The position numbers and the translations under genes are program-made. A model generated the notes under the pieces. It saw nothing but the letters and a program-made list of their open reading frames with translations, was not told the origin of the DNA and searched no databases. A DNA stretch of 33,303 nucleotides from Candidatus Heimdallarchaeota archaeon. GTDB taxonomy: Archaea; Asgardarchaeota; Heimdallarchaeia; Heimdallarchaeales; Heimdallarchaeaceae. The stretch lies in contig BPTO01000015.1 in NCBI GenBank assembly GCA_023705985.1, positions 1 through 33,303 of the forward strand, given 5' to 3'. Each line of letters begins with the position of its first letter. Position 1 is the stretch's first letter. Below are positions 23,001 through 32,921 of the stretch, piece after piece.

Positions 23001-24461
23001 CTAATCTCCTCTTTCTATTGTTTTAAGTAATTTCTGTTCATGAGAGTATAGTTCTATTTTCAAAGGCATTTTTCCTGGAAGAGAATGTGTTGCACATGCA
23101 AAACAGGGATCATATGCTCGAAATGCCATTTCAACCATATTCAATAAGCCGTCATTAACTACTCCCTTCTTTATAATTCCTTTCGCTGCGTCTCGTATTG
23201 ACATGCTTATTGCAGCAGAATTATTAGTGGTTGCTACTACTAAATTAGTTTTTTCGATTAGACCTTTTTCATCTAGTTTATAATGATGAATCAAAGTACC
23301 TCTTGCAGCTTCAGTAACGCCTATACCCTCTCCTGGTTCTCCAACAGGATTTCTGATATCGCTTGAAGTTATTTCAGGATCGTTGACTAATTCCATTGCT
23401 CTTTCAGTAGCATATAGTAATTCTATTAATCTAGCCCAATGAAAAGCTAAAGTAGAATTGACAGGTCTCCCGCCTAGTGTTTCATACATCCTTTTGTATT
23501 CATCATTAGCTAACGAAGTAGCCATTCCGTCTGCAGCATTCAACCTTCCTAATGGACCTACTCTATAAATTCCGCTTTCTTTGCCATCAACAAATCCTTT
23601 CCAACCTACTTTTGTGAGATAGGGGAATTTAATGTAACTCCATTCTTCAACGTGCTCGTCTATATGTTTGAAATAATCATTAACATCAAATTTGAGAAAT
23701 TCTTTACCAGATTGATCTGAAACCCTGATTAATCCATCATAGAAATTTACTTTGTTATTTTCATCAACTAATCCCATATTATAAGTTTTCAAAGTATAAG
23801 GATCGCTCAGAATTAAATTAACATAATCTTCATTTTTTAATACAATGTCATCAAATAATTTAAGAGAGAATTGTGCAAAATCTATACAAGATTTCGTCAG
23901 ATTTTTAATTTCATCAGCTTCGTCTTTAGAAAGAGATTTAGAAACTCCACCTGGAAGTCCACAAACTGGATGAGTTGCCTTACCACCAAGTATTGCAGTT
24001 ATTCTTTGTCCATATGACCTATGTTTGATAACTTCTTTTCCTATTTCTATACCAGCTTTTTCTATAACTCCAATAATATTTCTCTTTGCAGCTGGAGCAG
24101 TAGGGCCTACAACAAAATCCGGTCCTCCTAAGTAATAGAAATGGAGTATGTGATCATAAATGAAATAACCACAATACATGAGTTCTCTTAGTTTTTTAGC
24201 TGTAGGAGTAGGATCAACATTGAAAGCAGCATCAAGTGTCTTTGTAGATGCAAAATGATGTGCTACAGGACAAACTCCACATATTCTAGAAGTAATTTGT
24301 GGCATATCTTCTGCTCTTCTTCCCTGAGAAAAGCGCTCAAAACCCCTAAGTTCAGGTATTTGAAGATAAACATTCGCAACATCTCCTTCAGGATCTAAAA
24401 AGATAATGATTTTTCCATGTCCTTCCAAACGTGTAATGGGATTAATTGTTACAGTTTTCAT
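23001..24461 (-). CDS. mvhA: [NiFe] hydrogenase large subunit, Mvh-type (group 3c-like)
   Basis: The 486-residue protein holds the NiFe active site. The L1 motif is RICGVCPVAHH with Cys61 and Cys64; the L2 motif is DPCFACATH with Cys453 and Cys456. After His459 a 27-residue tail (SLPGK... to GD) remains, expected to be cut off by a maturation protease after metal insertion. All four nickel ligands are Cys codons, so no selenocysteine is involved. The neighbourhood (MvhG-, MvhD- and HdrA-like genes) supports group 3c, the H2-oxidising partner of Hdr. ATGA overlap with the small-subunit gene. The only protease gene nearby lies in the divergent operon (29931-30386). Confidence 0.95.
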   Translation of the reverse strand: MKTVTINPITRLEGHGKIIIFLDPEGDVANVYLQIPELRGFERFSQGRRAEDMPQITSRICGVCPVAHHFASTKTLDAAFNVDPTPTAKKLRELMYCGYFIYDHILHFYYLGGPDFVVGPTAPAAKRNIIGVIEKAGIEIGKEVIKHRSYGQRITAILGGKATHPVCGLPGGVSKSLSKDEADEIKNLTKSCIDFAQFSLKLFDDIVLKNEDYVNLILSDPYTLKTYNMGLVDENNKVNFYDGLIRVSDQSGKEFLKFDVNDYFKHIDEHVEEWSYIKFPYLTKVGWKGFVDGKESGIYRVGPLGRLNAADGMATSLANDEYKRMYETLGGRPVNSTLAFHWARLIELLYATERAMELVNDPEITSSDIRNPVGEPGEGIGVTEAARGTLIHHYKLDEKGLIEKTNLVVATTNNSAAISMSIRDAAKGIIKKGVVNDGLLNMVEMAFRAYDPCFACATHSLPGKMPLKIELYSHEQKLLKTIERGD

Positions 24462-25471
24462 TCTTTCACCTTCTTGTTTATTATAGCAGTAGGTAAGCCA
24501 TATTTGTAAAAAGTACCAACTGGATCAACCACTTGTTCAATCAGCTTTTCTACTTCTTCATCACTCATGTTTTCTTCATCTTCTAGACCTAGAATTGAAG
24601 CAATAGCTGATATCATACTTGCACCTTGGTCAAGTGAATTGGGCGCGGGACCACCACAACCAGTACAAGGCATATTAGCATCTAAACACTGAGCTTTACA
24701 CCCTCCTCGTGTCGCAGGACCTAAACATATAACTCCTTGTTCAAGAAGACACTTTTCCTCAATTGTTTCAAGTTCGTAGATTCGTTTTATCTCTTTTATT
24801 GTCTTTTCAGATTTTTCAAACCTACATTCATCACAAACAGATTTTAGTGGTCCAATAATAGACCCTTTTGGGGGTAATTTATTCTCAGCAATAGCTCCTA
24901 TAGCTGTCATAATCAAATCAGGATGGGGAGGGCAACCAGGTAGAAAATAATCTACCTCAACAACTTGATCAAGACTCTTAACAACATCATAGAATTCAGG
25001 TAGAGTTAAAATCCCTTCTTCAACTTCTGTAGATGTTTTTGGTAAAATTTTTTGAGGATTTGATGTGGAAGGATTTTCAAGATAAGAAACACGAAAAACT
25101 TCATCTTTACTCGCTAAATTAGCTAATCCTGGGATTCCTCCATTAACTGCACATGCTCCAAAGGCGATTAGAGTTTTGGATTTCTTTCTGAGAAGATTTG
25201 CTAGATGTTCATGTTCAGATGTTCTTATCGATCCATTGAAAAAACAGACATCAATATGATTATCTTCCATTTCTTCAACATCTTTGTATTTAAAATCAAG
25301 AGCTACTGGCCAAAAAAGAATGTCTGCAATAGCAATAACATCTAATATTTTCTCATCTATGTCTAAAACAGCAATTTCGCAACCACCACAGCTGGCTGCC
25401 CAATAAAAAGCTAATTTTAACTTACTAACGGTATTAGTAGTAGTTTTTTCATCACTTTCTTCTATATTCAT
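24458..25471 (-). CDS. mvhG: [NiFe] hydrogenase small subunit, Mvh-type
   Basis: The 337-residue protein carries Fe-S ligands of a group 3 small subunit: CGGCE (Cys28, Cys31), FGACAVNGG, FLPGCPPHPD, CDECRFEK and the C-terminal run CLGPATRGGCKAQCLDANMPCTGCGGP, split here for clarity as CLGPATRGGCKAQC and CTGCGGP. There is no twin-arginine signal, so the enzyme is cytosolic. It transfers electrons from the NiFe site to MvhD. It is the first gene of the eleven-gene operon. AAAAGGTGAA upstream of ATG serves as ribosome-binding site; the promoter probably lies at TTTAATTAA (25525-25533) or the TATA-like element at 25583-25592, both read on the minus strand. The acidic, low-complexity N-terminal ~15 residues are not part of the conserved fold. 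Confidence 0.93.
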   Translation of the reverse strand: MNIEESDEKTTTNTVSKLKLAFYWAASCGGCEIAVLDIDEKILDVIAIADILFWPVALDFKYKDVEEMEDNHIDVCFFNGSIRTSEHEHLANLLRKKSKTLIAFGACAVNGGIPGLANLASKDEVFRVSYLENPSTSNPQKILPKTSTEVEEGILTLPEFYDVVKSLDQVVEVDYFLPGCPPHPDLIMTAIGAIAENKLPPKGSIIGPLKSVCDECRFEKSEKTIKEIKRIYELETIEEKCLLEQGVICLGPATRGGCKAQCLDANMPCTGCGGPAPNSLDQGASMISAIASILGLEDEENMSDEEVEKLIEQVVDPVGTFYKYGLPTAIINKKVKE

Positions 25472-25709
25472 ATATTCACCTTTTGAAGGTAATAGATGTT
25501 GTAGAGCTTAATGAAGTATCTTAGTTTAATTAAGTATTGGGCTATAATGGGTTTTTTTGATGCAGCTTTAAGCATCTTAACAATTTATATAGATATTTCT
25601 GCAATATGATATATTATAAATCTTTCTTGTGCTAAAACAGTTCAAATATCCAAAAATACTGTTAAATAATTAAAAAAAAATTCATTTGCGTCTAAGTAGA
25701 AGTGAAATA

Positions 25710-25730
25710 ATATGTATCGATAATACATAT
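25710..25730. promoter_or_regulatory. Inverted repeat in the hydrogenase control region
   Basis: ATATGTAT (25710-25717) and ATACATAT (25723-25730) are perfect inverted copies with the spacer CGATA. The site sits near the middle of the divergent region and has the size of a dimeric regulator's operator. Chance occurrence in AT-rich DNA is possible. Confidence 0.4.
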
Positions 25731-25894
25731 ATTAAATTGCAAATTTGTGCATTTTGGGAATCCACAGACTTTATAGATTCATTAAAACTATTCTTATTTA
25801 TTAGTATACTAGGATTACTCGTGAAAGTGAGATCGCTTATGTTTGAATGAAGTTCTAGATATAGTGATATAATATAAGATGACGTTTTAGAATA

Positions 25895-25905
25895 CCTTAT
25901 AAATA
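25895..25905 (+). promoter_or_regulatory. TATA box of the group 3b hydrogenase operon
   Basis: CCTTATAAATA is centred at about 25900, 28 bases before the hydB ATG at 25928, the geometry of a leaderless archaeal transcript. No Shine-Dalgarno sequence precedes hydB, in contrast to the internal genes of the operon, which have them. Confidence 0.55.
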
Positions 25906-25927
25906 CGATGGAAAATCCTACTGCAGA

Positions 25928-26968
25928 ATGAAAACATATAAGATGTCTAAAGAAAAGTTTCCAGAATTCGTAGAACTCATAAAGACCAAAGGGAAACTTT
26001 ATGGACCAGTTAAACAAAAGGAGAAATATTCTTTTGAGGAAATTAATGATCATTCAGATTTAGATTTCGACTATCAAAGAACAGTTATTAGTCCAAAGAA
26101 GTTTCTCACTCCACCTCGTTACAATACTTTACGTTTTGTAAAATTTGGACAAACAGATGTTTTTCCTGATGATGAGCTACAAATAGTTCTGGGAGTACAT
26201 CCGTGTGATATTCATGCTATTAAGATCTTAGATAGATTATTTCTAGGTAACATCAAAGATCCATACTACGCAAAAAGAAGAGAAAATCTAATAATAATCG
26301 GTCACTCTTGCCTTCCTGATGAGAATTGTGTATGTCAATCAACAGGAACTGATATGGTTGAAGATGGATTTGACATGTTTTTCACAGAATTAAAAGATTA
26401 TTTCTTAGTTTGGGTGGGTTCAGATAAAGGACTTAGTATTGCTATAGATGCAGGAGACCTATTGAATGAAACTATTTCGGAAGAAGAAATTCAAGAGTAT
26501 GTCAGATGGCAACAAGATAGATCAACAATGTTTAAGAAAGAAATCCCTTCTTTCAAATACTTAGCCGATATTATTCACTTGAACTATGATAGTAATGTGT
26601 GGGAGCAGTTTGGAGAAAAATGTCTTTCTTGTGGAACATGCAGCTTAGTCTGCCCAACTTGTAATTGTTTTAATGTTAATGACAAAATTAGTATGAATGC
26701 AGAAGAAGGTTTCAGAGAAAGAATGTTAGATAGCTGTACTCTTCCACACTTCTCCATGGTTGCAGGAGGGCATGATTTTAGACCAGATAGAACATCAAGA
26801 TTGAAATTATATTTTACTCACAAATTAAAAGAATATATCGGGAAATATGGACAACCCAGCTGTGTAGGATGTGGACGTTGTATAGCATACTGTCCAGTTG
26901 ATATAAATGTAATCTCTGTTTCTGAAGCGCTTCTTGAAGAAGTATGCAAAAAAGTGGAGGAGTGTTAA
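25928..26968 (+). CDS. hydB: Sulfhydrogenase beta subunit (two-[4Fe-4S] protein)
   Basis: The 346-residue protein is the HydB/AsrA-type electron carrier of group 3b hydrogenases. The N-terminal domain contains VLGVHPCDIHAIKILDRLF and GHSCLPDENCVCQ. The cluster motifs are CLSCGTCSLVCPTCNCFN (~231-248) and CVGCGRCIAYCPVDINV near the end. It carries electrons between the hydrogenase dimer and the flavoprotein HydG. It opens the operon in the order beta, gamma, delta, alpha, the same as hydBGDA in Pyrococcus. It is paralogous to the FlxB-like protein at 20544-21569. The start is leaderless with a well-placed TATA box. Confidence 0.93.
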   Translation: MKTYKMSKEKFPEFVELIKTKGKLYGPVKQKEKYSFEEINDHSDLDFDYQRTVISPKKFLTPPRYNTLRFVKFGQTDVFPDDELQIVLGVHPCDIHAIKILDRLFLGNIKDPYYAKRRENLIIIGHSCLPDENCVCQSTGTDMVEDGFDMFFTELKDYFLVWVGSDKGLSIAIDAGDLLNETISEEEIQEYVRWQQDRSTMFKKEIPSFKYLADIIHLNYDSNVWEQFGEKCLSCGTCSLVCPTCNCFNVNDKISMNAEEGFRERMLDSCTLPHFSMVAGGHDFRPDRTSRLKLYFTHKLKEYIGKYGQPSCVGCGRCIAYCPVDINVISVSEALLEEVCKKVEEC

Positions 26969-26970
26969 AT

Positions 26971-27831
26971 ATGACATTAGCTAGTAATGGTAAAAAAATA
27001 GAAACTTACAAAACTAATCCAGTAGAAATATTGACTCTTAAGGATCTGACCAAAGATACTCGATATTTTAAAGTAAGATTCAAAGAGGAGAAGTTGAATG
27101 AGAATTTCAAGTATAGACCCGGTCAATTTGTTATCTTTTCTATTCCTGGTGTTGGAGAAGCTACTTTTTCATTATCATCCCCTCCAACGAGAAGAGGTTT
27201 CATAGAATTTGGTATCAGAAAAGTAGGTACTTTTACTGATGCACTTTTCAAGCTTAAAAAAGGTGACACTTTTCATTTAAGAGGTCCTTATGGAGATGGT
27301 TTTGAACTTGAAAGTCTAAAAGGAAGAGATCTAATAATAGTTACGGGTGGATTGGGTGCTATTCCTTTACGTTCAGTACTGCTTTACGTTGAAGATAGGA
27401 GAGAAGAATATAACCAAGTTTTCTTCTTGAATGGAGCAAGAAATCCTGGAGAAATGCTTTACAAAGAAGACTTCACTGCAATGGCTCATAGAGAGATAAT
27501 TGAAACACATCTCTCCGTTGATAACGATGACACTGGAGAATGGCCTTACAATATTGGTGTGGTTACAACACTTTTTCCAAAAATATCTGATAGAGTGGTT
27601 AGCGAGAACACTACAGCGATAATCTGTGGTCCGCCAATCATGTACAAATACGTAATTCAAGAGCTTTTGAAATTGAATGTACCAAAAGATCAGATACTAA
27701 TGACACTTGAAAGAAGAATGAAATGTGGTCAAGGACATTGTGGACACTGTGCAATCGAAGGGAGATATACTTGTCTAGAAGGACCTGTTTTCACGTATTA
27801 TGATGTTCAACATATTAAGGAGCTGATTTAA
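26971..27831 (+). CDS. hydG: Sulfhydrogenase gamma subunit (FAD/NAD(P)-binding)
   Basis: The protein binds FAD and NAD(P)H and carries one [2Fe-2S] cluster: YRPGQFVIFSIPG, FSLSSPPTRRGF and RGPYGDGF for FAD; VTGGLGAIPLRSVLLY and CGPPIMYKYV for the nucleotide; MKCGQGHCGHCAIEG plus a later Cys for the cluster. It exchanges electrons with NAD(P)H in the cytosol. A longer frame begins at ATG 26944 inside hydB, but I chose ATG 26971: it follows the hydB stop by two bases and has a clear GGAGG ten bases ahead (26956-26960). That gives 286 residues. It is paralogous to the FlxA-like protein at 19708-20547. Confidence 0.94.
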   Translation: MTLASNGKKIETYKTNPVEILTLKDLTKDTRYFKVRFKEEKLNENFKYRPGQFVIFSIPGVGEATFSLSSPPTRRGFIEFGIRKVGTFTDALFKLKKGDTFHLRGPYGDGFELESLKGRDLIIVTGGLGAIPLRSVLLYVEDRREEYNQVFFLNGARNPGEMLYKEDFTAMAHREIIETHLSVDNDDTGEWPYNIGVVTTLFPKISDRVVSENTTAIICGPPIMYKYVIQELLKLNVPKDQILMTLERRMKCGQGHCGHCAIEGRYTCLEGPVFTYYDVQHIKELI

Positions 27832-27832
27832 A

Positions 27833-28627
27833 ATGTGGATAAGAGAAAAGAAACCAGTTGTTGGTGTTTTCGGTTTTTCAGGATGCGCTGGAGATCAACT
27901 TGCGATTTTACATATGGAAGATGATTTAGTAGATTTCTTTACTAGTGCTGATATCAAATTCTTCCACATGGCTCAATCACATCAAGAAGTACCTGAAGTT
28001 GATATAGCTTTAGTTGAAGGAAGTATTAATACTTCGAAACAAGAGAATGAATTAAAGGAAATAAGGGAAAAGGCTAAAATTGTTGTTTCCTTAGGAACAT
28101 GCGCTTGTTACGGTGGTATCCAGTACTTAGGTGAAAATGAAACTGAATTCAAAGAAAGAATGGAATATGTTTATGGAAAAGATGGTAAAAATCCCGAATT
28201 TCTAGATTTAGTTGGACAACCTCAAGCAGCTGAACCTATAAGTAAATACATAAAAGTCGATATAATGATTCCAGGCTGTCCTATAGCCCCAGAAAACTTC
28301 GTACCTATTTATACAAAATTAATATCTGGACTATTTCCACAGAAATATCCTTACCCTGTTTGTGTAGAGTGTAAATACAAAGATAATGACTGTTTCCTAT
28401 TGAAAGGTAAATATTGTCTTGGTCCAGTAACAGCTGCTGGTTGTGATGCTATCTGTCCTTCTCTAGAAGTTTCTTGCGTAGGTTGTTTTGGTCCATACGA
28501 AGGTTCAAACTATCCTTCCATGATTGAAAAACTGAAGGAAATAGGCTTAACTGAAGAAGAAATTAAACGAAAACTTAGAATGTTCGGGGGCGATGTCCTC
28601 GAAAAGAATTTAGATGGTGATAACTAA
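27833..28627 (+). CDS. hydD: Sulfhydrogenase delta subunit ([NiFe] hydrogenase small subunit)
   Basis: This 264-residue small subunit has the Fe-S ligand pattern of group 3b: FGFSGCAGDQ at the N-terminus, GTCACYGGIQ, MIPGCPIAPENF, then CVECKYKDNDCFLLKGKYC and CLGPVTAAGCDAIC, ending with SCVGCFGPYEG. It has no signal peptide and no membrane anchor. It takes electrons from the alpha subunit to HydB. AAGGAG (27817-27822) precedes the ATG and the gene starts one base after hydG ends; its stop overlaps the next start (TAATG). Confidence 0.94.
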   Translation: MWIREKKPVVGVFGFSGCAGDQLAILHMEDDLVDFFTSADIKFFHMAQSHQEVPEVDIALVEGSINTSKQENELKEIREKAKIVVSLGTCACYGGIQYLGENETEFKERMEYVYGKDGKNPEFLDLVGQPQAAEPISKYIKVDIMIPGCPIAPENFVPIYTKLISGLFPQKYPYPVCVECKYKDNDCFLLKGKYCLGPVTAAGCDAICPSLEVSCVGCFGPYEGSNYPSMIEKLKEIGLTEEEIKRKLRMFGGDVLEKNLDGDN

Positions 28628-29916
28628 TGACAGAAAAGACAATAAGAGTTGATGTGTTATCTAGAGTTGAAGGTGACGGTGGGATTCAAGTTCATGTTAA
28701 AGATGGTAAAGTTGAAGGTGTTATAGTAGATATCTTCGAAGGCCCAAGAATGATTGAGGCTTTAGTAAGAGGTAAAACAATTCATGAAAGCATCTCACTT
28801 GTATCTAGAATTTGTGCTATATGCACAGTTTCTCATAGGTATGTTTCGATTAAAGCAATTGAGAACGCTCTAAAGTTTGAAGTTCCTGAAAAAATTAAAC
28901 TTTTAAGATATTTGATGCATTTAGCAGAATTTATTGAATCACATGTTTTACACGTTTATTTCCTAGCTTTACCAGATTTCTTTAGGAAACCTTCAGCTAT
29001 AGCTCTACTTCCAACACATGGAGAGACAGTTGTAGAAGCAATCACACTTAAGAAATACGGAACAGAGTTGATGAAACTTACCATGGGAAGAAAAATTCAC
29101 GGAGAAAACCCTCAAATCGGTGGTTTCGGAAGAATACCTACTAACAAGGAACTAGATGATTTTGCAGAAAAAGCTAAAGAATATGCACCAATGATAGCAT
29201 CAACAATAGATGTTCTTGCATCTCTTGAAATTCCAGATTACTGCGAAAGAGAAACAGTTTTCATGTGTTGCAATCCAGCTGATGGAAAATTTGGCTTTGA
29301 AGGTGATTCAATCTTGATTTCTACTGGAGAAGAATATCCAGTAGATGAATACAAAAAACTAACAAATGAAAGAGTTGTCCCACATAGTTACGCAAAGCGC
29401 TCTCGATATAACAACAAACCTTTCACCGTTGGTGCTCTTGCTAGATTATTACTAATAGGTGATAGATTAACAGGCATAGCTAAAGAAAAGTTCGAGAAAT
29501 ACAAGACAGATAGATGGAAAGTAAATCCTCTCTATAACAATATTTCTCAAGCTATTGAAGCCTTATGGGCATTTGAACAAATACCTGATTTAATAGAGAA
29601 AATAAAAGCTCTCCCTGATACAGAAATTATCGTACCAGAAGTCAAAGATGGAATAGGAACAGCTGCAGTAGAAGCTCCAAGAGGGGTACTATACCATTCT
29701 TATGAGATTAAAGATCATAAGATTGTAAATGCAGATATTATTACTCCAACAGCACAATTTCTGGATGATGTAGAAGAATTCATTAGAACAGCTGCAGAAA
29801 AACTTGTAGAAGAAGATAATGAAGAAACAGAATTACATCTAGAAATGATTGCTAGAGCTTATGATCCATGTATTAGTTGTTCTTGTCATATGGTTAAACT
29901 AGTAAAACACGATTAA
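28627..29916 (+). CDS. hydA: Sulfhydrogenase alpha subunit ([NiFe] hydrogenase large subunit, group 3b)
   Basis: The 429-residue catalytic subunit has L1 as RICAICTVSH (Cys63, Cys66) and L2 as DPCISCSCH (Cys415, Cys418), the extra cysteine and the short tail being typical of group 3b. After His421 only eight residues (MVKLVKHD) remain, the peptide expected to be removed at maturation. The enzyme couples H2 production or uptake to NADP(H); some members also reduce sulfur. Together with HydB, HydG and HydD it forms a soluble heterotetramer. All nickel ligands are cysteine. The maturation protease gene follows after 14 bases. Confidence 0.95.
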   Translation: MTEKTIRVDVLSRVEGDGGIQVHVKDGKVEGVIVDIFEGPRMIEALVRGKTIHESISLVSRICAICTVSHRYVSIKAIENALKFEVPEKIKLLRYLMHLAEFIESHVLHVYFLALPDFFRKPSAIALLPTHGETVVEAITLKKYGTELMKLTMGRKIHGENPQIGGFGRIPTNKELDDFAEKAKEYAPMIASTIDVLASLEIPDYCERETVFMCCNPADGKFGFEGDSILISTGEEYPVDEYKKLTNERVVPHSYAKRSRYNNKPFTVGALARLLLIGDRLTGIAKEKFEKYKTDRWKVNPLYNNISQAIEALWAFEQIPDLIEKIKALPDTEIIVPEVKDGIGTAAVEAPRGVLYHSYEIKDHKIVNADIITPTAQFLDDVEEFIRTAAEKLVEEDNEETELHLEMIARAYDPCISCSCHMVKLVKHD

Positions 29917-29930
29917 TGGAGATCTATTAA

Positions 29931-30386
29931 TTGTCTTTTTTCTCTTTTTTTCATAAAGAACAAGAGAATTTCATTTTTCTTTGCTTTGGGAATGTTGACA
30001 GATCCGATGATGGTCTTGGATTATTGATAGCAAAGAGTCTTAAAGAGAAATTTCCTGACAAAGTAATTTCAGAGGATGAAATAGATATAACATCCTATCT
30101 TCTAGAAATAATTGATAATACAGCGATCGAAGTTGTAATAATTATAGATGCTATAGATTTTGGAGCACAACCTGGAACTTTGTTAATTACCTCTAGAATA
30201 GATAAAGCTGTTAGACAAATATCCTCTCATCAGCTACCATTCCAACAAATAGTAAAAATCCTAACAGATAATAATAAAGAAGTGGTTCTATGCGGAATTC
30301 AAATCAAAACAACAGAATTTATGGGTAAAATGTCAGATGAAGTACTCGAAGGAATCAGAAATTTATTATCTTATTTTGTTGATTAA
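29931..30386 (+). CDS. Hydrogenase maturation protease (HycI/HyaD family)
   Basis: The 151-residue protein has the family's nickel-sensing motifs: FGNVDRSDDGLG (residues ~19-30), IIIDAIDFGAQPGT (~70-83) and SSHQLPFQ (~97-104), giving the usual acidic, acidic and His ligands. It clips the C-terminal peptide from the large subunit once nickel is in place. The start is TTG (29931), supported by GGAGAT at 29918-29923; no suitable ATG exists. Because it ends the group 3b operon, HydA is its likely substrate. Whether it also processes the longer tail of the Mvh-type subunit is open, as no second protease is in the window. It converges with the nitroreductase gene. Confidence 0.92.
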   Translation: MSFFSFFHKEQENFIFLCFGNVDRSDDGLGLLIAKSLKEKFPDKVISEDEIDITSYLLEIIDNTAIEVVIIIDAIDFGAQPGTLLITSRIDKAVRQISSHQLPFQQIVKILTDNNKEVVLCGIQIKTTEFMGKMSDEVLEGIRNLLSYFVD

Positions 30387-31356: not shown

Positions 31357-32700
31357 TTAGACATAATCTATTAGTGCTCTCATTCTTTCTATTGTTTCTA
31401 ATCCTTTTCTTGTTATTTTGTACTTTTTCTGCTTCATTTTTGGTTCTATAACACTTATCAACCCTTTTTTTTCTAATTGGTTTAAGTGTTGATAAATGGA
31501 CTGCTTAGTAGGACTTTTCCCTAGCGAATTCCAAATCGAGATACCATAGTTCGCTTTATTATTCGCAATGAAGTTTAGAATCTCAAACTTAGTTGTTGAA
31601 CTCTGAGAAAGCCCCCAAACAGCTTTCTGATGTCCTCTTAATTGTGAAGCAAAGATATTCAATGCATTTATTCCTGTTCCTGTAAGTATTCCTACTGTTC
31701 GGCTAACATTAATCTGTTCTGTTTCAACTAGTTGATGAGCTGCAGCTATAACTGAAGCTGATGCAGGTTCAATAAATAATCCTTCATTCTTAGCTAGTTT
31801 CATTGCCTTATCTATCATTACACTTGCATCTATCTCAATATCTTTCCCCTTTGTTTGAACTAGAATTTTTTTCACTTCCTCATGTAATTTAGAAGGTTTT
31901 GATTCTAGGGATTCAGCGAAGTGAGAAACATGGGTCTTTTTTAGAGATACTGCATAGATACTTGGAATATCCTCGATCCATCCAGATTTAATTGCATCTT
32001 CATATCCTCTGAAGATAGAAAGAATCAAAGTTCCTGAACCCTTTGGAACTATTATGGAGCTTATTTCTTTCTTTTGGATGACTAACTCTAGCGCTATTGT
32101 TTTCTGTCCCTCTATTGTTAGTATATTACTCTCAGGAGTTGCTAGATAACTGCTTGTAGTTCTTGAATATTCACTAGCAAATTCCACTGCTTCTTCTACT
32201 GTTTCTCCTATCTCTTTAACTTCTCCTCCGTATAATTGTATTTGTTCTTTTTTTGAAAGATCAAGATTAAGAGGTAATATGTTGGTCGATTTAATTCCAG
32301 CTTTTGCGGAATAAGCGGCTAGACTAATATTAAACGATCCTGTACTTGCTCCAACTATTTTCTTTTGTTTCTTATTTAATGCATCAGATACAATTACTGA
32401 AGCTGCTCTATCTCTAAAAGAACCTGTTGGATTACGGAACTCTAGTTTAAGTATCAAATCCTTAATTGGTTTATCTCTAGATATTTTTGTACAAGGAGTG
32501 TTACCTTCAGAAAGAGTCATTATTTTACTGAATTGAGGGAGAAAATCGTTTAATGACCACATTGTTGAAAGTTCATAATTCGAATAAGAACAGGCTTCTA
32601 TAGGCTGTACTTTGTTTAATTCTTTGCATTTTTCACACCAAAGTTGTGTTGTGTTTGCAATCGTCTTGCATTTTTCACAGAATACTTCAATATTAGTCAT
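31357..32700 (-). CDS. Threonine-synthase-like protein without PLP lysine, fused to a winged helix (putative regulator)
   Basis: The 447-residue protein starts with a zinc ribbon (CEKC...CEKC, residues 8-25), then a fold-type II PLP domain like threonine synthase (~45-355), and ends with a winged helix (~368-447: TTKFEILNFIANNKANYG, SIYQHLNQLEKKGLI, YKITRKGLETIERM). In threonine synthases the segment NPTGSFKDR holds the PLP-binding lysine. Here it reads NPTGSFRDR, with Arg96 (AGA, 32413-32415). The PLP O3' loop STGN is STGS followed by F, and the phosphate loop GNGG is GSGT. The cofactor site therefore appears lost or reshaped, and the protein is more likely a ligand-sensing DNA-binding regulator than an enzyme. 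It follows a small gene by 20 bases. Confidence 0.85.
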   Translation of the reverse strand: MTNIEVFCEKCKTIANTTQLWCEKCKELNKVQPIEACSYSNYELSTMWSLNDFLPQFSKIMTLSEGNTPCTKISRDKPIKDLILKLEFRNPTGSFRDRAASVIVSDALNKKQKKIVGASTGSFNISLAAYSAKAGIKSTNILPLNLDLSKKEQIQLYGGEVKEIGETVEEAVEFASEYSRTTSSYLATPESNILTIEGQKTIALELVIQKKEISSIIVPKGSGTLILSIFRGYEDAIKSGWIEDIPSIYAVSLKKTHVSHFAESLESKPSKLHEEVKKILVQTKGKDIEIDASVMIDKAMKLAKNEGLFIEPASASVIAAAHQLVETEQINVSRTVGILTGTGINALNIFASQLRGHQKAVWGLSQSSTTKFEILNFIANNKANYGISIWNSLGKSPTKQSIYQHLNQLEKKGLISVIEPKMKQKKYKITRKGLETIERMRALIDYV

Positions 32701-32720: not shown

Positions 32721-32921
32721 TTATTTGAGAATCTCAGTTGCTTGTTCATTTTTATCGATTTCGATATCACTTAAACATAATTCCACCCAAAATTCCTCTA
32801 ACTGAAAGGATAAAGGATCTTCAAAATCTAAGTAAAAGTCTATATCTTTATTCTTGAGATAATCAAGCAATTTTATCATAATATCTCTCTCGCTCTTTGA
32901 ACTAACGACAAGCTTCATCAT
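32721..32921 (-). CDS. Small unknown acidic protein
   Basis: This 66-residue protein is not recognised. It begins MMKLVVSSKSERDIMIKLL and is predicted alpha/beta with an acidic C-terminal half (DFYLDFEDP, LSDIEIDKNEQ). It sits 20 bases upstream of the threonine-synthase-like regulator gene on the same strand, so the two are probably co-transcribed. Two adjacent ATGs (32921 and 32918) could serve as start. The length, normal codon use and position argue for a real gene, but no motif confirms it. Confidence 0.55.
   Translation of the reverse strand: MMKLVVSSKSERDIMIKLLDYLKNKDIDFYLDFEDPLSFQLEEFWVELCLSDIEIDKNEQATEILK

Follow-up and report, generated by a model that had tools for sequence, protein, structure and literature searches.

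A threonine-synthase-like protein fused to a winged helix as a predicted regulator of vitamin B6 supply in Asgard archaea

The 447-amino acid protein encoded by an open and intact reading frame at positions 31357-32700 (reverse strand) of the window, i.e., the whole stretch of 33,303 nt of Heimdallarchaeaceae DNA analysed here, probably regulates vitamin B6 supply at the level of transcription, and would do so as a non-covalent PLP sensor and as a repressor of B6 import and of pdxST. With somewhat less assurance, it is considered to represent an Asgard-wide family of transcription factors derived from a fold-type II PLP enzyme. Having repeatedly lost its lysine, the enzyme domain would now sense PLP non-covalently and control B6 synthesis and import, which would make the family a non-homologous counterpart of bacterial MocR/PdxR.

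The protein is composed of an N-terminal zinc ribbon (32596-32688, reverse strand as for all features of this gene) with C8, C11, C22 and C25 invariant in a 12-member family alignment, a PALP (threonine-synthase) domain covering residues 62-341 (31678-32517; PF00291, E 7e-49), which is the proposed PLP sensor, and a PadR-like winged helix covering residues 366-446 (31363-31605), recognized from Pfam, relatives and the structure model. The winged helix of the window protein itself scores below the Pfam cut-off for both HTH_45 and PadR (PF03551; 22.6 bits against a cut-off of 27), whereas that of relatives lies above the PadR cut-off (47 against 27 bits in one relative; E 2.6e-12, with 10 of 10 members matching). 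It is also clear in a structure model built with 89 relatives as input (pLDDT 90.4), which superseded an earlier model from 12 sequences (pLDDT 75.7), and hence the C-terminal winged-helix fusion proposed in the initial annotation was borne out. Unlike in PadR regulators, this winged helix is joined to an enzyme-derived sensor domain. The best PDB matches of the model in Foldseek are threonine synthases (target-normalised TM of about 0.8, rmsd of about 3 Å). Similarity to the threonine synthase model NF004170/PRK05638 extends over the full length including the winged helix (E 1.9e-77), but the score of 260.7 bits is below the cut-off of 421, and the score against TIGR00260 (81.3 bits) is likewise below its cut-off of 167.1. 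Directly upstream of the fusion gene lies a 66-amino acid ORF (32721-32921, reverse strand), which is present in most family orthologues having upstream sequence and has no Pfam match; downstream of the fusion gene, a NiFe-hydrogenase-like cluster with putative maturation protease and ferredoxin-nitroreductase genes occupies positions 23001-30386.

The PALP domain has Arg96 (AGA codon, 32413-32415) in the motif NPTGSF-R96-DR, at the position where threonine synthase has its Schiff-base lysine for PLP, and judged by this lysine the protein does not qualify as a threonine synthase, while the PALP fold and the phosphate loop of this enzyme are present. This substitution, as initially described, was confirmed and is no sequencing error at 32413-32415, since NPTG[ST]FRDR with Arg is found in all family orthologues covering the site; these orthologues, 52-61% identical, come from independent MAGs and from the complete genome CP084167 (Ca. 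Heimdallarchaeum endolithica), and all of those that extend to the C-terminus have the winged helix. The further proposal that two more cofactor loops are altered holds in part. Alignment places Ser122 (32335-32337) at the position of the Asn contacting PLP O3', and the phosphate-binding loop (residues 219-225, PKGSGTL; 32026-32046) reads GSG where the enzyme form has GNAGN, but the glycines of this loop and the ring-nitrogen contact Thr340 (31681-31683) are kept.

Fusions were traced through Asgard archaea using NF004170, a model long enough to cover the winged helix, and by scanning genome contigs, for which a single protein gave no match and a winged-helix alignment as query worked. Key residues were compared in an alignment of 122 proteins, including 32 stand-alone relatives from Asgard archaea, and all 32 of these have Lys at the PLP position and Asn at the O3' position. 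In the fusions, this lysine position is occupied by Arg in Heimdall and several other lineages, by Leu in f6 and others, and by Ile, Val, Thr, Asn or Ser elsewhere among the lineages sampled, requiring at least 12 changes on a quick tree. Lys is found among Asgard fusions only in Lokiarchaeota (f8), with the motif NPTNSFKDR. The phosphate-loop glycines and Thr/Ser340 are invariant across all fusions, and the O3' Asn is replaced by Ser or Ala in the Heimdall Arg clades and kept elsewhere, with a few Asp. Such a pattern, with the lysine lost and the cup kept, would be expected of a PLP pocket relieved of its catalytic role, although the loss of the O3' Asn, as judged from the alignment, weakens PLP as the putative ligand in the Heimdall Arg clade. 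Bathyarchaeota and one Archaeoglobi record also have fusions. The Archaeoglobi fusion (Mnemosynella, L165, 319-1320) carries Glu in place of the lysine, and just before its own start there is a related palindrome (TATTAAAGTGCATACTTTAATA).

It is very hard to maintain that the window protein is an active threonine synthase, with a tolerated Arg96 and the winged helix as an accessory DNA-binding tail. This reading draws on the Lokiarchaeota fusions, which keep the lysine and may be enzymes, but it is opposed by the presence of R, L, I, V, T, N or S at this position in all other fusion lineages sampled and by the uniform lysine of stand-alone relatives. Moreover, a separate Lys-bearing ThrC homologue, scoring above the TIGR00260 cut-off, is encoded in its own genome (G000:C6), and the fusion is thus not needed as the enzyme. 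The lysine is also kept at f8 loci such as L051 and L061, and some of those genomes have a single TIGR00260 match; from their sequences, Lokiarchaeota fusions may combine the roles of enzyme and regulator. Hence, Arg and the fusion occur together within Heimdallarchaeaceae but not in Lokiarchaeota, and the combination that had been named as refuting a regulatory role, namely the same fusion with an intact lysine and threonine synthase activity, is found as regards the lysine, the enzyme activity being only putative.

In most Asgard lineages the fusion gene adjoins either pdxS-pdxT, encoding the PLP synthase, or a gene for a PF07155 ECF S-component. At all seven f6-type Leu loci pdxS and pdxT are divergent from the fusion, as they are in G060, and in G043 the order is fusion-pdxS-pdxT, co-directional. 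The PF07155 gene adjoins the fusion in Lokiarchaeota, in f9, f12, f16 and f21-f24, and in one Odinarchaeia and one Helarchaeota record, accompanied by EcfA and EcfT in several cases. Within the family of the window protein, most genomes whose contig is long enough have an S-A-T operon after the fusion, and in G005 its place is taken by pdxT-pdxS. Ten family genomes have PF07155 and lack pdxS, G005 being the reverse, and pdxS and PF07155 thus replace each other within this family. At L202, EcfS immediately precedes a co-directional PdxS. The window itself contains no B6 gene, and the proposed target of its fusion is on another contig (C150). No B6 neighbour was seen for fusions with flanks from Odin/Baldr (L131-L132), Jord, Frey and Bathyarchaeota. 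The Bathyarchaeota-type Arg fusions at L142, L146, L148 and L162, without B6 neighbours seen, are located directly 3' of apparent archaeal GatD/GatE genes and may have another role.

The B6 transporters PdxU and HmpT belong to PF07155 (PMC9997740), and HmpT has pyridoxamine as substrate (PMC4860826). The PF07155 protein of the window's own genome scores 67.8 bits, above the cut-off, and HmpT (4HZU_S) is the sole significant PDB match of Asgard ECF-S proteins; the HmpT substrate residue His84 is Lys in one aligned Asgard ECF-S. From these relationships we infer that the substrate of the ECF-S-A-T system is a B6 vitamer.

The upstream regions of the ECF-S and pdxS genes have in common the palindrome TATWCAAG-N6-CTTGWATA, positioned near the start codon and shortly after a TATA-like element, and the predicted operator DNA of the fusion protein is given by TATACAAGTTGTAACTTGTATA. 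A scan of 59 Heimdall-class genomes revealed 25 exact sites in 23 genomes, as compared to two sites for a reversed control pattern. All but one of these (24 of 25) directly precede an ECF-S or pdxS gene and come from fusion-bearing lineages, in 22 genomes, a count that includes G037, which is possibly mis-binned and has an f1-type fusion contig, and G018, which has only a winged-helix remnant. The remaining exact site, in the fusion-less G175, has no recognised B6 gene nearby and was regarded as stray. In G018 the remnant (L270, G018:C37, 5028-5249) is beside an intact ECF S-A-T operon with an exact operator. In G037, a Heimdallarchaeaceae-type fusion (L030/L157, G037:C27) is found on a contig of a genome assigned to another family, and it is this contig whose mis-binning is possible. 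The window's genome has two exact copies, which overlap and both precede the ECF-S-A-T operon on its contig C150. When the pattern is relaxed to TATNYAAG-N6-CTTRNATA and up to two mismatches are allowed, a site precedes 44 of 49 unique ECF-S genes, as opposed to 12 of 978 other genes, and of these 12 three are divergent partners of target operons; since the pattern was derived from some of the loci counted, these locus counts are partly circular and the genome-wide count is the cleaner one. In f11 the operator is degenerate (3-4 mismatches), and a version of the same operator is present before the ECF-S gene in Lokiarchaeota. Regarding autoregulation, no palindrome within two mismatches was found in the window. 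One-mismatch sites on contigs C26 and C30 of the same genome are inside coding sequence and were judged to be due to chance.

Binding of this operator by the fusion protein is inferred from the co-occurrence of the two and from the recognition helix. No operator is found before pdxS in fusion-less genomes (f3, f4, G047, G048, G065, G072 and G099); G065 and G072, with neither fusion nor site, are congeneric with G088, where both are present. The helix residue compared is two before the conserved YQH (xYQHL preceded by one small residue) and corresponds to Gln400 in the window protein (31501-31503). Among distinct helix-site combinations, the 20 whose site carries C at base 5 have Gln here without exception, and the 38 with T or A at this base have Ala, Pro or Ser and never Gln; because the helix/site groups follow the tree, this complete match amounts to about two independent events. 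The contrast in the predicted site forms for the Gln400 preference is given by TATATAAG versus TATACAAG. That a different regulator binds the palindrome, with the fusion merely adjoining B6 genes in some different role, has in its favour the location of fusion and proposed target on separate contigs in the window's genome, but this is improbable given that sites track the presence of the fusion across genomes, even within one genus, and that its recognition helix covaries with the site.

Thus, the conversion of an enzyme into a transcription regulator, as initially suggested, is well supported by gene context, the shared operator and helix-operator covariation, while the suggested sensing of an amino acid or a phosphorylated intermediate found no support, the apparent targets being genes of B6 synthesis and uptake. 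A regulator of amino-acid metabolism whose former active site senses threonine, homoserine phosphate or some other amino acid would fit the threonine-synthase ancestry and the name of the closest NCBIfam model, but is quite improbable, as the operator and the neighbours are those of B6 genes and not of threonine genes. Since the apparent targets serve B6 synthesis and uptake, the ligand is likely to be PLP or a different B6 vitamer, and with the PLP-bonding lysine lost, binding would most likely occur without a covalent bond and without catalysis. In the proposed mechanism of B6 control, the threonine-synthase-derived domain would be the sensor, in which the PLP cup is kept (phosphate loop and ring-nitrogen contact), and the PadR-like winged helix would bind TATWCAAG-N6-CTTGWATA as a dimer, with the TATA-like element on one side of the site and, on the other, the start codon of the ECF S-A-T importer operon or of pdxST. 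Plentiful PLP would then cause repression of the B6 importer and pdxST genes. Repression is favoured because the operator is promoter-proximal. Control of the B6 genes by an activator that is switched off by PLP has a precedent, since PdxR of several bacteria activates pdxST as apo-protein with PLP as anti-activator (PMC5320631); it is nevertheless unlikely, if the least unlikely of the alternatives, as a site 3' of the TATA-like element and near the start codon fits repression better.

In bacteria, pdxST and pdxU are under the control of PdxR, a member of the MocR group, and MocR regulators are reported to be absent from Archaea (PMC5320631). As in MocR-type PdxR, a PLP-enzyme domain as the proposed sensor is combined with a winged helix (PMC5320631), the gene is divergent from or next to pdxST, and the predicted regulon includes B6 synthesis and transport (pdxU in PdxR). 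However, PdxR has a fold-type I aminotransferase domain with an N-terminal GntR winged helix, whereas the archaeal fusion has a fold-type II PALP domain with a C-terminal PadR-like one and has mostly lost the lysine. The fusion is not a MocR/PdxR member but, judged by its predicted regulon of pdxST and B6-transport genes with a shared operator, appears to work like PdxR. In the literature searched, with subscription papers mostly outside it, neither a ThrC-winged-helix regulator nor an archaeal B6 regulator is described, and for vitamin B6 in Asgard archaea the present analysis predicts a regulator together with its operator and regulon. It also points to a substrate for an ECF transporter that is widespread. 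Among database entries labelled threonine synthase, many are probably regulators, and the findings suggest that the change from PLP enzyme to PLP sensor arose twice, from unrelated folds.
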